A stretch of 64,000 bases of DNA from an uncultured Oscillospiraceae bacterium (GTDB lineage Bacteria > Bacillota > Clostridia > Oscillospirales > Oscillospiraceae), in contig CANQBA010000007.1 in the NCBI GenBank assembly GCA_947589545.1, positions 1 through 64,000 of the forward strand, written 5' to 3'. Every line of letters begins with the position of its first letter. Within the stretch, counting starts at the first letter, position 1. The position numbers and the translations under genes are program-made. The notes under the pieces were generated by a model, which made no database searches, was not told the DNA's origin, and saw only the letters and a list, made by a program, of their open reading frames with translations. Shown piece by piece: positions 25,938 to 33,803 of this stretch.

Positions 25938-26495
25938 GTGGAGGATACCGAGCTTGTGGAGCTTTTCTGGGCCAGAGACGAGTCCGCCCTGGCGGGTGTG
26001 TCGGAGAAATACGGCGGCCTGTGCCGGCAGCTGGCCCGGCGGCTTCTGGGGAGCGACCGGGACGCGGAGGAGTGCGTCTCCGACGTACTGCTGCGCCTGT
26101 GGGAGTCCATCCCGCCCCAGCGGCCCCTGTCCCTGAAGGCGTATATGCTGAAGATCACCCGCAATCTGACGGTGGATCGCTGGCGCGGGAATACCGCCGC
26201 CTTCCGGGCGGGGGAGCTGACGGCCCTGACACCGGAGCTTGAGGCGTGCCTGCCCGCGTCCCCCAGCGCCGAGGAGGTGTCCGGGGAGCGGCAGACGGCC
26301 GAGGCTGTGGACAGGTGGCTGAAGACCCTGTCCAAGGACGACCGGACGCTGTTCCTCCGGCGCTATTGGTTCGGGGACACGGTGAAGGAGATCGCCCGGA
26401 GCCGCGGCGTCCCCGCCAACCGGCTGACACAGAAGCTGAACCGTCTGCGCGGCGGCCTCCGGCGCGCCCTGGAAAAGGAGGGGATCGTCTTATGA
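25938..26495 (+). CDS. ECF-type sigma-70 factor
   Basis: 185 residues with sigma region 2 (LARRLLGSDRDAEECVSDVL, then MLKITRNLTVDRWR) and region 4 (LSKDDRTLFLRRYWFGDTVKEIARS, with the helix-turn-helix at about residues 145-175). It directs RNA polymerase to alternative promoters. GTG start behind AAGGAGG. The stop overlaps the next gene (ATGA), whose product has the layout of a membrane anti-sigma factor, so the pair is likely a signal-responsive unit. A paralogous pair is at 44932-46532. Confidence 0.92.
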   Translation: MEDTELVELFWARDESALAGVSEKYGGLCRQLARRLLGSDRDAEECVSDVLLRLWESIPPQRPLSLKAYMLKITRNLTVDRWRGNTAAFRAGELTALTPELEACLPASPSAEEVSGERQTAEAVDRWLKTLSKDDRTLFLRRYWFGDTVKEIARSRGVPANRLTQKLNRLRGGLRRALEKEGIVL

Positions 26496-28083: not shown

Positions 28084-28111
28084 TTGAATTGCCGGAACGA
28101 TATGGTATAAT
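28084..28111 (+). promoter_or_regulatory. Promoter of the aldolase gene
   Basis: TTGAAT (28084-28089), 16 bp, TATAAT (28106-28111). Confidence 0.75.
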
Positions 28112-28152
28112 GGGAGACGTAGACCCAAATTCTCTACATAGGAGTGATCATT

Positions 28153-29121
28153 ATGCCTTTCGTTACCACCACCGAGATGTTCAAAAAGGCCTATGACGGC
28201 GGATACGCCGTAGGCGCCTTCAACGTCAACAACATGGAGATCGTCCAGGGCATCACCGAGGCCGCCCGGGAACAGCACGCCCCCCTGATCCTTCAGGTCA
28301 GCAAGGGCGCCCGCGCCTACGCCAACCACACCTACCTTGTGAAGCTGGTGGAGGCCGCCGTCATCGAGTGCCCCGATATCCCCATCGCCCTGCACCTTGA
28401 CCACGGCCCCGACTTTGAGACCTGCAAGTCCTGCATCGACGGCGGCTTCACCTCCGTCATGATCGACGCCAGCTCCAAGCCCTTTGCCGAGAATATCGAG
28501 ATCACCCGCAAGGTGGTGGAGTACGCCCACGACCACGGCGTGGTGGTGGAGGCCGAGCTTGGCTCTCTGGCCGGCGTGGAGGACGAGGTCAACGTCTCCG
28601 CCGAGGATTCCAGCTACACCCGCCCCGAGGAGGTGGAGGAATTCGTCTCCAAGACCGGCTGCGACTCCCTGGCCATCGCCATCGGCACCAGCCACGGTGC
28701 TTACAAGTTCACCGCCGCCCAGTGCACCCGCAACGAGCAGGGCGTCCTGGTGCCCCCTCCGCTGCGGTTCGACATTCTTGAGGAGGTCTCCCGCCGTCTG
28801 CCCGGCTTCCCCATCGTGCTCCACGGCTCCTCCAGCGTGCCCCAGGAATTCGTGAAGATGATCAACGAAAACGGCGGCCGTCTGCCCGACGCCGTGGGTA
28901 TCCCCGAGGAGCAGCTGCGCAAGGCCGCCACCCTCTCCGTGTGCAAGATCAACATCGACTCCGACCTGCGCCTGGCCATGACCGGCTCCATCCGCAAGTA
29001 TTTCGCGGAGCACCCGGATCATTTCGACCCGCGCCAGTATCTGACCCCCGCCCGCGCCAACATCAAGGCCATCGTGACCCACAAGCTCATCGACGTCCTT
29101 GGCTGTGCCGGCAAGGCGTAA
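28153..29121 (+). CDS. fba: Class II fructose-bisphosphate/tagatose-bisphosphate aldolase
   Basis: 322 residues. Zinc-dependent cleavage of fructose 1,6-bisphosphate to dihydroxyacetone phosphate and glyceraldehyde 3-phosphate (or a related ketose bisphosphate). Catalytic Asp83 and zinc ligand His84 are in LHLDHGPDFETC; further landmarks are VEAELGSLAGVEDEV, IGTSHGAYKF, VLHGSSSVPQEF and KINIDSDLRLAMTGSIRK. The ATG at 28153 has GGAGTG at the right distance; the ATG 9 nt upstream does not. Cytoplasmic, glycolysis. The codon bias is the strongest C-ending bias in the window, suggesting high expression. Confidence 0.92.
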   Translation: MPFVTTTEMFKKAYDGGYAVGAFNVNNMEIVQGITEAAREQHAPLILQVSKGARAYANHTYLVKLVEAAVIECPDIPIALHLDHGPDFETCKSCIDGGFTSVMIDASSKPFAENIEITRKVVEYAHDHGVVVEAELGSLAGVEDEVNVSAEDSSYTRPEEVEEFVSKTGCDSLAIAIGTSHGAYKFTAAQCTRNEQGVLVPPPLRFDILEEVSRRLPGFPIVLHGSSSVPQEFVKMINENGGRLPDAVGIPEEQLRKAATLSVCKINIDSDLRLAMTGSIRKYFAEHPDHFDPRQYLTPARANIKAIVTHKLIDVLGCAGKA

Positions 29122-29199: not shown

Positions 29200-31182
29200 G
29201 TGAAAGAGAACGAGCTTGACAGGATCCCGGAGGACGCGGAGGCCTCCCGCCTCACCGTGGACGATATTCTCAAGGAATACCATGCCGAAAACGGGGCTCC
29301 CGCCCCTTCGGAGCCCTTGCCCGCCGCGCCGGAAACGCCGGAGGAACCCCTGGAACCGGAACCCGCCCCGGAGGAACCCGCGCCGTCCCCGGCCGACGAG
29401 AGCAAACGGATTTCCGCCGCCCCGGAGGAATCCACCCCCGAGGAATACGCCCCGGCAGAACCCACCCCGGAGGAGCCTTCCTCCGATTTTCCGGAACCGG
29501 AGACGGAACCGGCGGGGGAGGAGGAACCGGCTTCGGACGAAGACGGCGAGGAGTCCGTACAGGACGATGAAGCGCCGCGCCGGAGCGGCCTCTTCACCGG
29601 CAAGGTCATCCTTACGTTGCTCACAAGCCTGATCGCCGCCGCCCTGGTGGGGATCGCCGTGGCGCCGGACATTCCCGACCCGGCCTGGAGCGTCTTTGTA
29701 CTGGCGGGCCTTGCGGTGGGGTGCGTCCCGCTTCTCGTCTGGACGGCGCTCCATCTGCGGGACAGATCCCGCCACGCCCCGCCCGCGGTCATGCTCCTGG
29801 CGGTGCTGTTGACGGCGGCCGCCCATGAGCTTGTGGCGGCGGCTCTGTGCGCCGTCCTCTTCGACGCCCTTTACGCCGTCGCCCACCGTCTGGCCCACCG
29901 GGAGCTGGAGAAGGTGATGGACAGGCTCTATAAGCGCCTGGACGGCATCGATCCCAGCCGCGAGCGGCGTCTTTCCGCCTGTGTGGACGAGCTGGAAAAC
30001 GGCCGGATCAAGGCGGTGATGGATCTGCGCGGCGTCCGGCCCTTTGTGCTTCTGGCCGCCCTGGTGCTGGCGGCTCTGTGCGTGCTGATCCCGGGCCTTA
30101 TCGACAGCGCCCTCTTTTCCAAATGGCTGGCCCGGGCCGCCGTGATCGTGGCCGCCTGCGCCTGCGGGGGCGAGCTGGCCGCTGTCCTGGCCTACGCCTG
30201 CGCCGTGGACCGGGCCTATGCCGCCGGCGCGTGGCCGGCGGGCCTGGGGACGGTCAGCGCCTGCGCCGACGTCACCAGCGTCATCTTCAACAAGGCCGGC
30301 GCCCTCACCGACGGCGAGTACCGCATCACCAACATCGACCCCGTCCGCATCACCGAGGGACAGCTCCTCTATCTGGCCGTCCAGGCGGGGGCCTACTCCG
30401 AGCACCCCCTGAACCGGGTGATCCGCCGGGAGTCCGGGATCCTGCCTGAGCGTTCCCGCATCGACCGTCAGCGGGTGGAGATCGGCTACGGCAGCTTGGT
30501 GCGCCTGGACGACGGCACCATCGTGGGTATCGGCAACATCGACTTCATGGAAAAATTAGGCGTTCAGGGGAACCTCTTTGTCCCCGGCGGCACCTGTGTT
30601 TTCGTCTGCGTGGACAAGGTCTGCGTGGGCCGGATCGACTTTGCCGACGCCGTCAGGCCCGACGCGGTGAACATCGCCCGGGAGCTGCGCAAGGCGGGGG
30701 TGGACAACGTGGCCATGATGACCGGGGACAACGCCCTGGCCTCCACCAACGTGGCCCGGAGGCTTGATATCTCCGAGGTCTATTCCGACTGCCGGCCCGC
30801 CGACAAGGCGGAGCGGCTCCAGTACATCCAGAATACCCAGGATCGGAAGGACCGGGCCGCTTTCGTCACCCGCGCCGGAAATGAGCGGGAGCTTCTGGAG
30901 CTGGCCAACATCAGCGTCACTCTGGGGGTGGGGGACGACTCCACCGCCAACTACCCCGACATCATCCTCTCCGACGGCCTCCTGACGCCCCTGCCGCGCC
31001 TTTTATGGGACGCGCGGCTGGTGCGGCGGAGCATTACCTCCGGCGTCCTTGTGAGTCTGGCCGTCCAGATCCTGACGGCGCTTTTTGGCGTCCTGGGCGT
31101 GCTCCCCGTGTGGGGCGCCGCCGTCCTCATGCCGGCGCTGTATGCCTACCTGATTTTCCGGGCCAGGAAGATCGCCGGCTAA
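29200..31182 (+). CDS. Degenerate P-type ATPase-like membrane protein (pseudoenzyme)
   Basis: 660 residues. A Pro/Glu-rich acidic N-terminus (about residues 25-128) is followed by membrane segments (about 131-215 and 275-335), a HAD-like cytoplasmic region (about 355-610) and two C-terminal membrane segments (about 617-650). The layout is that of P1-type ATPases, but the phosphorylation motif DKTGT reads NKAGA with Asn364. The GDGxND motif reads RAGNE, the metal CPC motif is ACACGG, and the actuator domain with TGES is missing. Only MTGDN (residues 507-511) is kept. It cannot form the usual phospho-aspartate, so a regulatory or structural role is likely (inference). GTG start. Confidence 0.75.
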   Translation: MKENELDRIPEDAEASRLTVDDILKEYHAENGAPAPSEPLPAAPETPEEPLEPEPAPEEPAPSPADESKRISAAPEESTPEEYAPAEPTPEEPSSDFPEPETEPAGEEEPASDEDGEESVQDDEAPRRSGLFTGKVILTLLTSLIAAALVGIAVAPDIPDPAWSVFVLAGLAVGCVPLLVWTALHLRDRSRHAPPAVMLLAVLLTAAAHELVAAALCAVLFDALYAVAHRLAHRELEKVMDRLYKRLDGIDPSRERRLSACVDELENGRIKAVMDLRGVRPFVLLAALVLAALCVLIPGLIDSALFSKWLARAAVIVAACACGGELAAVLAYACAVDRAYAAGAWPAGLGTVSACADVTSVIFNKAGALTDGEYRITNIDPVRITEGQLLYLAVQAGAYSEHPLNRVIRRESGILPERSRIDRQRVEIGYGSLVRLDDGTIVGIGNIDFMEKLGVQGNLFVPGGTCVFVCVDKVCVGRIDFADAVRPDAVNIARELRKAGVDNVAMMTGDNALASTNVARRLDISEVYSDCRPADKAERLQYIQNTQDRKDRAAFVTRAGNERELLELANISVTLGVGDDSTANYPDIILSDGLLTPLPRLLWDARLVRRSITSGVLVSLAVQILTALFGVLGVLPVWGAAVLMPALYAYLIFRARKIAG

Positions 31183-31198
31183 GCCAAAATTCCATTCG

Positions 31199-31232
31199 AG
31201 CGGGAAACTTTTTCTTGTTTCCCGCTTTTTTC
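31199..31232 (+). terminator. Terminator of the P-type ATPase-like gene
   Basis: Perfect arms AGCGGGAAAC and GTTTCCCGCT followed by six T. Confidence 0.9.
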
Positions 31233-31234
31233 TC

Positions 31235-31288
31235 TTGACAATCTCGATAATCGAGATTATACTGTACCATAGAAACTCGAATATCGAG
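31235..31288 (+). promoter_or_regulatory. Promoter with two PadR-type operators
   Basis: TTGACA (31235-31240), 17 bp, TATACT (31258-31263). Two copies of CTCGA-N3-TCGAG lie at 31243-31255, between the -35 and -10 boxes, and at 31276-31288, just downstream of the start site. Centres are 33 bp apart, about three helical turns, so both dimers would sit on one face of the DNA. The following gene encodes a PadR protein; autorepression is the natural reading. Confidence 0.8.
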
Positions 31289-31306
31289 AATAGGGGAGGC
31301 GAGTAC

Positions 31307-31630
31307 GTGCCGCGGGCGAAATTTCAGACCATGACCGAGCAGATGTTCTATACGCTTCTGTGCCTGAAGTCCGAGTGCTGTGGGATGGATATCCTGGACC
31401 GCGTGCCGGAGATGACCGGCGGGACCGTCAACGTGGGCTCCGGGACGCTCTACACGCTCCTGGAGCAGTTTTGCGCGGTGGGCTGGATCCGGGAGACCCG
31501 GGTGGAGGGCCGCCGCCGCAGCTATATCCTGACGGAGGCCGGCCGGGAGGCCCTGGCGCGGGAATACCGGCGTATCCAAGCCCAGGCGGAGGACTACCGG
31601 CGCATTTTCGGAGAGGAGGATCAGAAATGA
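31307..31630 (+). CDS. PadR-family transcriptional repressor
   Basis: 107 residues. Winged helix typical of the short PadR branch: TEQMFYTLLCLKSECCGMDIL, VGSGTLYTLLEQFCAVGWI, then the wing RVEGRRRSYILTEAG. GTG start at 31307 behind AGGGGAGG. The stop overlaps the start of the DUF2812 gene (ATGA). PadR genes next to DUF2812 genes are a recurrent pair in Firmicutes, where the regulator controls the membrane protein. Confidence 0.92.
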   Translation: MPRAKFQTMTEQMFYTLLCLKSECCGMDILDRVPEMTGGTVNVGSGTLYTLLEQFCAVGWIRETRVEGRRRSYILTEAGREALAREYRRIQAQAEDYRRIFGEEDQK

Positions 31631-32961
31631 GAGACAAAAAACGCCAGATCTTGCCCTATTCCCTTTACGACTACGACGCCTACGCCCGCCATTTCGCCAA
31701 AATGGCCCGGCGCGGCTGGATGGTGGAGGGGACGGCCCCCTTTACCTGGGCCTACCACAGATGCGAACCCAGGGAGCTGACCTTCGCCGTGTCCTACTTC
31801 GCCCGGGCGTCCATGTTCGACACGGAACCGGGGGAGGAGCAGAGCGAGTTTATCGCCTTCTGCCGGCGTACCGGCTGGCAGTTGGCCGCCACCAACGCCC
31901 AGATGCAGGTCTTCTACAACGAGCGCCATGACCCGGTGCCCATCGAGACGGACCCGGCGCTGGAGGTGGAGACGATCCACAGGGCGGCCAAGCGGATGTA
32001 TCTGCCGCTGATCTGGATCATCCTGGGCCTGGGGATCCTGGAGATCCTGACCGACCGGCATCTGGATCCCGCCGCGTTCCCCCTGACGTTCCTCTCCCAC
32101 GGGAGCACGCTTTTCAGTCTCGCGACCAATCTCCTGCTGCTGGTGTATTCCGCCGTGGAGCTGGGAGCCTACTTCCTCTGGCTCCGCCGTGCCCGGAGAG
32201 CGGCGCGGGAGACGGGGACGATGATCCCCTCGGCGGGCCACCGGCGCTTCAACGTGGCGGTGCTGGTGCTGACGGCGGTTTTGCTGGTCTCCTCACTGGT
32301 CACGTCAGTCCTCTACAGGGAGCTGCTGTACGGCTTCGTGGTGTTGCTGATGCTGGCGATGATGGCCGTGGCGATCGCCATCTCCTGGCAGGTTCAAAAG
32401 CTTATGAAGCGCCGCCGTGCCTCCAGAATCGCCACCATGCTGGCCACCTACGGAACCGCCGTGGCCCTTTCCCTGGTGATATTGACCACAGTGGTGTTTA
32501 TCGCCGTGGGCAGCTTTTCGGAGGGCTTTTTGCGGGAGAGAGCGGAGGATCTGCCCCTGACCTTCACGGATCTTTATGAGGGAACCGACTACCAGGAGTC
32601 CGTCCACCGGGACGGAAGCCCGCTTCTCACAAGTCTGTCTGTCGTTCAATTTGAGTGGGCCGGGGACAGCCTCGACTACACCCTCTACGAGGTGCAGATC
32701 CCGTCCCTGGCCGATCCCATCCGGAATCTCATCCTGCGTGACCTGGAAACTGACGGCACAGTAAACGGCGAGCATTACCTGAATGCCGACCCATCCCCCT
32801 GGCACGCCGACCGCGCCTTCCAACAAGATTGGCAGGGCGAGCCTCTGAGCGACTGGCTCCTCTTCTACCCCGGACGGATCCTGTTCTTTGACCTAAACAG
32901 GGAACCCACCCCGGAGCTAATGGATACCGTCGCCGCCAAACTCGGCGGGAAAGGAGACTGA
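31627..32961 (+). CDS. DUF2812 membrane protein
   Basis: 444 residues. The N-terminal DUF2812 domain (about residues 10-125) has the family pattern YDYDAYARHFAKMARRGWMVEG followed by the FAVSYFARASMFD strand. Four membrane segments follow (about 120-260), then a C-terminal outer domain of some 150 residues. The function is not known for the family. Its link with PadR suggests a stress-induced envelope role. Start overlaps the PadR stop; the next gene, a shorter paralogue, begins 2 nt after its stop. Confidence 0.85.
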   Translation: MRDKKRQILPYSLYDYDAYARHFAKMARRGWMVEGTAPFTWAYHRCEPRELTFAVSYFARASMFDTEPGEEQSEFIAFCRRTGWQLAATNAQMQVFYNERHDPVPIETDPALEVETIHRAAKRMYLPLIWIILGLGILEILTDRHLDPAAFPLTFLSHGSTLFSLATNLLLLVYSAVELGAYFLWLRRARRAARETGTMIPSAGHRRFNVAVLVLTAVLLVSSLVTSVLYRELLYGFVVLLMLAMMAVAIAISWQVQKLMKRRRASRIATMLATYGTAVALSLVILTTVVFIAVGSFSEGFLRERAEDLPLTFTDLYEGTDYQESVHRDGSPLLTSLSVVQFEWAGDSLDYTLYEVQIPSLADPIRNLILRDLETDGTVNGEHYLNADPSPWHADRAFQQDWQGEPLSDWLLFYPGRILFFDLNREPTPELMDTVAAKLGGKGD

Positions 32962-32963
32962 CC

Positions 32964-33803
32964 GTGCGCAGACCGGAATACTTTTCCCTCTTTGACTACA
33001 CCGCCATTGAGGCGCACCTGGCAAAAATGGCGGAAAAGGGCTGGCTTTTGGAGAGAATGGGGCCGTTTTTCTGGAGCTACCGGCGGATAGAGCCGCAAAA
33101 GCTCCGGTTTCACGTCTCCTATTTCCCCAACGCCTCCCGGTTCGACCCGGAGCCCACCCCGGCGCTGACGGAATATTCGGAGCTGGCCGCCCACACCGGT
33201 TGGCAAAGGTGCGCGGCCCTGGAATTTGTACAGATATTTTATACGGCGGAGGAAGCGCCTATGCCCATGGAGACAGATCCGGTTCTGAGGCTTGCCTCCG
33301 TCCGGGAGGCCTTTGTCCGAAGCGCCCTGCCGCTGGACGCCTGCGTCCTCCTGGTTTGCGCGCTGATGCTGGATATGTTGGGCGCCCTGTCCGGCCTCAC
33401 GGCGTTCTTTGCGGCCGCCGTGTCCGTGTTGTGTATCGTCTATTACGCCCTGGAGCTGACCGTCTACGGCCTATGGTTCCTCCGGGCATCCCGTCTGGCG
33501 GGAGCGGGGGAGTTCATGCCGTCGCCGTGCCACAGCGGCGTCCTGCGGGTGTTCCAGGGGCCGGCCTTGGCGCTGACAGCCGCCTATGCCGTGGGGTGGG
33601 CCGTGTGCGGCGCGGGCGTCCAGCGGCTCGCGCTTCCTTTGGCGGTGCTTGCGGCGCCGGCGCTTTTCCAGGGGACAGACAGCCTCCGGGAGCGCCTGAA
33701 AAGAAACGCCTTGCCCCGGCGGCAAAACCGCGCCGCCGTCCTCGCCGCCTCAACGATCCTTTTCGCCGCCCTCGGCGCGGTCATGAAGCTGTTCCAAATC
33801 TGA
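32964..33803 (+). CDS. Second DUF2812 membrane protein
   Basis: 279 residues, a paralogue of the previous gene: FDYTAIEAHLAKMAEKGWLLE corresponds to the DUF2812 start, FHVSYFPNASRFDPEPTP to the second block, and QIFYTAEEAPMPMETDP to the third. Four to five membrane segments follow and there is no large C-terminal domain. GTG start behind AAAGGAGA. Third gene of the PadR operon; the tandem pair probably arose by duplication. Confidence 0.83.
   Translation: MRRPEYFSLFDYTAIEAHLAKMAEKGWLLERMGPFFWSYRRIEPQKLRFHVSYFPNASRFDPEPTPALTEYSELAAHTGWQRCAALEFVQIFYTAEEAPMPMETDPVLRLASVREAFVRSALPLDACVLLVCALMLDMLGALSGLTAFFAAAVSVLCIVYYALELTVYGLWFLRASRLAGAGEFMPSPCHSGVLRVFQGPALALTAAYAVGWAVCGAGVQRLALPLAVLAAPALFQGTDSLRERLKRNALPRRQNRAAVLAASTILFAALGAVMKLFQI

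Follow-up and report, generated by a model that had tools for sequence, protein, structure and literature searches.

A degenerate P1B-type pump with Asn at the phosphorylation site, conserved behind the aldolase gene in a genus of Oscillospiraceae

P-type ATPases are defined by a phosphorylated aspartate, and pump mutants in which this Asp is replaced by Asn can bind ATP more tightly. The available portions of a review on the enigmas of P-type ATPases call the residue invariant and mention no family that lacks it (PMC10654040). In SERCA D351N and Na,K-ATPase D369N, the replacement prevents formation of the phosphoenzyme, according to the accessible sections of a study of the eukaryotic TMEM94/ERMA protein (PMC13322241). 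Here we describe a gene at positions 29,200 to 31,182 of a 64,000-nucleotide stretch from an uncultured Oscillospiraceae bacterium (GCA_947589545.1, contig CANQBA010000007.1, positions 1 to 64,000; hereafter the window), whose product resembles a P1B-type pump and carries Asn at this very site. That relatives keep the altered gene directly behind fba, the gene of class II fructose-bisphosphate aldolase, suggests that a former pump in a gut bacterium has been given a new, non-pumping job. Among the papers listed by our search of the literature on inactive or pseudoenzyme P-type ATPases and on an operon of fba with a P-type ATPase, we found no report of this arrangement, nor of a bacterial family that gave up the phosphorylated Asp but kept its nucleotide site and its full length under selection; coverage of subscription papers was partial, so this is no proof of absence.

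The gene and its parts lie on the forward strand of the window as follows (TM, transmembrane helix; dN/dS, ratio of nonsynonymous to synonymous substitution rates).

29200..31182, + strand: pseudo-P1B-type ATPase, 660 aa, GTG start, TAA stop; sequence matches, alignment and predicted model
29200..29589, + strand: acidic, Pro-rich N-terminal tail, residues 1-130; composition, model and dN/dS
29599..29892, + strand: first four pump helices, residues ~134-231; helices in the predicted model, the P1B labels MA, MB, M1 and M2 being our assignment from it
29893..30042, + strand: helical linker of ~50 residues (232-281) replacing the actuator domain; alignment and model
30151..30171, + strand: TM4 region AACACGG, residues 318-324, with the CPC ion motif changed to CAC; alignment
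30289..30303, + strand: NKAGA, residues 364-368, with Asn364 at the phosphorylated-Asp site; alignment
30397..30411, + strand: SEHPL, residues 400-404, motif of the nucleotide-binding (N) domain; Ser400 and His402 invariant in 29/29 family members
30718..30732, + strand: MTGDN, residues 507-511, motif of the phosphorylation (P) domain; TGD invariant in 29/29

Judged by its sequence and predicted model, the protein is a P1B pump by descent and fold. Its best NCBIfam match is TIGR01525 (E 1.7e-48; 165.9 bits, with the family cut-off at 346.25), and among PDB entries P1B pumps match it with E values down to 8.2e-22, the best matches including Zn/Cd-type pumps. The P domain passes the PF00702 (HAD) cut-off with 39.5 versus 26.4 bits, and the predicted model has the overall P1B-type fold. 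The features of a working pump are nevertheless missing, namely the Asp of DKTGT, the actuator domain with its TGES, GDGxND, and CPC together with the TM5 Lys and TM6 Asp. PF00122, the actuator domain, is not among the Pfam matches of the protein, and a PF00122 search of its own genome matched three other genes and not this one; alignment and predicted model leave only about 50 residues, helical, between the second and third pump helices. The GDGxND site aligns with TRAGNE, and PADK, MTGDN, SxHP, GxG and GN are all retained in the alignment.

A preliminary description, made from the sequence alone, had read the gene as full length with a terminator, had pointed to Asn364, to the lost GDGxND and CPC motifs and to the missing TGES domain, and had seen MTGDN, the overall HAD shape and a long acidic, Pro-rich N-terminus as retained features. 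This picture holds throughout, the terminator as a match in a consensus scan. The first 125 residues contain 42 D/E, 24 P and 6 K/R; in the predicted model the tail is of low confidence, with a predicted local distance difference test score mostly below 50 and 60 for the block 21-30, and a weak helix is predicted at residues 20-30, within LTVDDILKEYHAE.

The window gene is a member of a conserved genus-wide family and not a recent pseudogene, given its presence in relatives and its low dN/dS over the P and N domains. With a family profile we found a member in 29 of the 34 genomes of the genus, each scoring above 630 bits, with the next class of matches starting at 276 bits. All 21 genomes that are at least 90% complete carry one, and the five without a member (G008, G012, G015, G023 and G028) are 76-87% complete. 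The relatives are uncultured bacteria, mostly Oscillospiraceae, from sources including 'Lapin', goat and dairy cattle. An intact DKTGT in close relatives, named in the preliminary description as the mark of a recent pseudogene, was sought and not found: residue 364 is Asn in 24 members, Ser in 4 and Asp in 1, and the Asp-bearing member (L027, DKRGT) has neither an actuator domain nor GDGxND.

Sites around the nucleotide are almost invariant. SxH, GxG, GN and TGD are invariant in 29/29 members, and the Pro of SxHP is present in 26/29; the P-domain Lys is invariant in 28/28 rows. The 28-row motif counts that follow and the tree below exclude L029, which is truncated by a stop. At the GDGxND site the first Asp is lost in 28/28 and the last position is Asp in 18/28. 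The TM5 Lys and the TM6 Asp each survive in 5/28 members, and CPC in a single member of 29, L030 of genome G020, which reads NKTGG and lacks the actuator domain. Within residues 131-655, mean entropy is 1.26-1.37 bits in the P and N domains versus 1.97-2.26 elsewhere. In 12 close pairs picked by us, a simple pairwise NG86 count gave a dN/dS of 0.02-0.22 over the P and N domains in 12/12, and of 0.21-0.60 for the tail in the 10/12 pairs in which it was computable; saturation left 2/12 tail values and 1/12 C-terminal values uncomputable. The pump part has diverged to as low as 25% identity within the genus. Loss of catalytic residues and purifying selection, both marks of a pseudoenzyme, occur together in this protein, whose inactivity is predicted. 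The claim that the gene is kept by selection accordingly stands, as does that of descent from a metal pump, which agrees with the TIGR01525 and PDB matches and with the tree grouping.

The link to the aldolase is the strongest clue to a role. The elements around it in the window are these.

28084..28111, + strand: sigma-70-like promoter match before fba, candidate promoter of a two-gene unit; consensus match only
28144..29121, + strand: fba, class II fructose-bisphosphate aldolase, 325 aa; PF01116 E 1.7e-100, TIGR01859 above cut-off
31198..31227, + strand: terminator-like hairpin of 11 pairs, 3' of the pseudo-pump; consensus match only

In 27/29 copies (the window and 26 of the 28 named relatives) fba lies directly upstream on the same strand; in L066 and L083 the contig ends before the fba position, so the pair is kept in 27/27 readable copies. 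The gap from the fba stop to the pseudo-pump start is 78 nt in the window, and in 26 relatives the first candidate start with a Shine-Dalgarno-like site lies 15-106 nt past the fba stop. The consensus scan gave no terminator-like site on the + strand between the two genes. Other flanking genes, for example the downstream PadR and DUF2812 genes, are common to only part of the relatives; in the window, a PadR-type regulator and then two DUF2812 genes occupy 31235-33803.

Outside the genus, we sampled the DNA downstream of fba at 80 loci from other genera of the same bacterial family and at 40 loci from other families, and left out 5/80 and 2/40 loci with less than 1500 nt behind fba, which gives denominators of 75 and 38. 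Distances span the DNA between the end of the fba match and the beginning of the open frame after the preceding stop, and are not measured to the start codon. A pump-like frame opens within 120 nt behind fba on the same strand at 10/75 loci of other genera and at 0/38 of other families. All 10 such frames are degenerate, without DKTGT and without TGES; the pumps in these stretches that have both motifs (n=4) open at least 280 nt away. Four further pumps were found through a pump match and stand outside the 10/75 count: L116, L117 and L118, degenerate and fba-adjacent, and L121, intact and 498 nt from fba. Genome G083 carries fba twice, and behind each copy lies a separate degenerate pump that lacks the actuator domain (L145, L117); L110 / L119 (genome G202, contig 126) is a pump-like gene without an actuator domain that reads DKSDS and retains CPC.

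In other genera, the 13 degenerate pumps adjacent to fba keep the TM5 Lys in 13/13 and an Asp or Glu in TM6 in 13/13. The acceptor Asp is still present in 8/13, though not the DKTGT motif, and Asn occupies the acceptor site in L128 and L191 of this lineage as well. The window family is the reverse, with the SxHP His and TGD in 28/28 and the membrane ion-site residues mostly lost. Both lineages retain, beside the aldolase, a membrane protein that has P and N domains. Their opposite remains argue against ATP sensing as what the two have in common; they speak for a role of the scaffold as such, on which each lineage kept one pump property.

We placed these proteins in a tree of 73 rows built on the sequence that starts before TM3 and extends to the end, with L001, which we take to be of CopA type, as the outgroup; L126, cut by the end of its stretch, was left out, and L040 was dropped as a duplicate of L121. 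The window family forms one clade (support 100/100). A separate clade (97/81) comprises the 13 degenerate pumps that lie beside fba in other genera, and the intact L162 (100/100) and L121 (96/83) join it. The window family groups with the degenerate pumps L110, L038 and L045, which are not fba-adjacent (96/92), and clusters with other pumps of the same bacterial family with moderate branch support and long branches nearby. As several rows have long branches, we are unsure of exact placements. Linkage to fba needs two changes on the tree if L121 (498 nt) and L162 (464 nt) are labelled as linked and L148, nearer at 280 nt, is not. Forcing the 43 fba-linked rows together costs 16 log units, and a single origin of the linkage for both lineages is not rejected (approximately unbiased test, p-AU 0.064). 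At least 5 changes are required to explain where the actuator domain is present, and at least 6 for Asp versus not-Asp; such counts are blind to gain versus loss, and they indicate that decay of the pump probably happened repeatedly. Searched across the whole order, the alignment of degenerate pumps linked to fba gave, as its top matches listed, what look like ordinary full-length pumps, a result uninformative on spread beyond the family.

On sequence grounds, Asn364, the missing actuator domain and the lost Mg loop, together with the conserved nucleotide site, are best explained by a non-hydrolysing, nucleotide-binding membrane protein. The preliminary description overlooked the retention of SxHP, GxG and GN, the genus-wide conservation and the adjacency to fba; its idea of a sensor or scaffold appears plausible. 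We tentatively favour, at somewhat less than even confidence, a non-pumping, nucleotide-binding membrane protein that serves the aldolase encoded in the same two-gene unit as a partner for regulation or docking. The former P1B pump would stay in the membrane and no longer pump; its P and N domains would bind ATP, or a nucleotide related to it, without hydrolysis, because the change from Asp to Asn removes the phosphate acceptor. Partnership with the aldolase may tie glycolysis to the energy state or to the membrane, with the acidic tail serving as a flexible tether or as an arm for binding. A similar role could be kept in the lineage of other genera by the opposite half of the pump, the ion-site residues being kept there and the ATP site mostly lost. 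A broader and rather doubtful extension is that, within a single bacterial family, a pump gene of Zn/Cd type next to fba was repeatedly turned into a non-pumping membrane partner of glycolysis, keeping the ATP-binding half in one lineage and the ion-binding half in the other and discarding the actuator several times, so that a dead pump became an aldolase-coupled membrane sensor.

Several observations weigh against the proposed aldolase partner. Gene neighbourhood alone is no proof of interaction, and the partnership is inferred. Since 65/75 fba loci of other genera and 38/38 of other families have no adjacent pump-like frame, the pair is far from universal and aldolase in general does not need a pseudo-pump. 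The degenerate relatives L038, L045 and L110 show no fba in the stretches fetched. The SxHP His is retained in only 3/13 fba-linked relatives of other genera, which makes nucleotide binding unlikely as a shared function. Finally, one copy of 29 (L029; genome G002, contig 111) carries an in-frame stop near the contig end, which is either a true nonsense mutation or a fault of the assembly. We think it unlikely that the protein is a membrane scaffold or regulator unrelated to the aldolase that merely rides on fba expression. In favour of this, fba is glycolytic and probably well expressed, contact with the aldolase is presumed, and L038, L045 and L110 are degenerate with no fba in the stretches fetched. 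The persistence of the pair in every readable copy of the genus despite the drift of the pump argues against such a passenger, as do the patchy retention of the other flanking genes and a linkage that takes two changes on the tree with one origin not rejected. Decay towards a relic or recent pseudogene, for which the L029 stop and the fast-evolving tail could be cited, is hardly credible beside 28/29 copies that are stop-free across the profile match, the low P/N dN/dS of the 12 pairs and the presence of the gene in every near-complete genome.

The remaining alternatives concern what the protein might do with metal or with other pumps. Class II aldolases are metal enzymes, and an ex-Zn/Cd pump might hand over or sense metal as a passive carrier, buffer or gate for the aldolase. 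The Zn/Cd-type pumps among the best matches, the ion-site residues kept throughout the other-genera lineage and the CPC of L030 favour this; we nonetheless consider it improbable, as within the window family itself those TM5 and TM6 residues persist in a small minority and CPC in L030 alone. An inhibitory or assembly subunit of the cell's intact metal pumps is very improbable: the genome does encode three pumps in which both the actuator domain and DKTGT are present, but the neighbour of the gene is fba and not a pump gene, and to our knowledge the general view of bacterial P1B pumps is that they function on their own. Transport by an unusual mechanism, as claimed for TMEM94/ERMA, we hold to be likewise very improbable. 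ERMA is reported, in the accessible sections of its description, to move Mg2+ without TGES and GDGVND, yet it keeps the Asp and its D427N mutant abolished uptake (PMC13322241); the window protein naturally has Asn at this site and has lost the actuator domain.

Other origins and contexts were also considered. A phage origin was rejected, with no relative in viral_contigs, where 36 stretches matched a pattern and none was confirmed; so was a plasmid origin, with no place covering 80% of the protein and the 10 listed of 4918 records being annotated metal pumps with coverage up to 47%. A search of the window's own genome for an LTVDDILKEY-like motif of the tail gave one match besides the window gene, and thus no set of motif-bearing partners; [DE]DI[LI]xE occurs in 11/29 N-termini of the family. 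The degenerate pump L045 (genome G136, contig 374; also L114), which reads GKTGV and has MGED in its actuator domain, has an acidic, Pro-rich C-terminal tail ending in FTLEDILKEFRDQ, which resembles LTVDDILKEY in the N-terminal tail of the window protein. A sigma-70 family factor of 185 aa, with a region 2 match and a weak region 4 match, is encoded at window positions 25938-26495, upstream of the aldolase region.

The fba link names a candidate partner that can be tested directly, and the two lineages, having kept opposite halves, amount to a natural experiment on reusable pump parts. A loose parallel, from what was accessible of that literature, is the eukaryotic aldolase that links glucose sensing to membrane proteins. 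Judging by the domain matches, automatic annotation would probably label the window gene a metal ATPase or a HAD hydrolase. The protein shares the HAD-fold P domain of the HAD hydrolases (PF00702) and lacks their nucleophile Asp, for which reason we rejected a working hydrolase and the 'hydrolase' label would mislead. It differs from the P1B heavy-metal ATPases ZntA, CadA and CopA (TIGR01525) by the absence of a phosphorylatable Asp, an actuator domain and GDGxND and by its changed CPC. With SERCA D351N and Na,K-ATPase D369N, as far as their treatment in the consulted source goes, it has the same Asp-to-Asn replacement in common; those mutants are single changes in otherwise intact pumps, whereas here the change is natural, fixed in the lineage and accompanied by other motif losses. 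The nearest described parallel is TMEM94/ERMA, which, in the sections available, is likewise a degenerate member of the P-type ATPases that lacks TGES and GDGVND (PMC13322241). ERMA keeps its Asp (DKQGI) and an A domain, has a closed nucleotide pocket and is claimed to transport (PMC13322241), and the catalytic Asp that such transport needs by the same account is absent here, where Asn364 takes its place. Set against ERMA as it is described there, the window protein combines this Asn with a missing actuator domain and conserved nucleotide-site residues.
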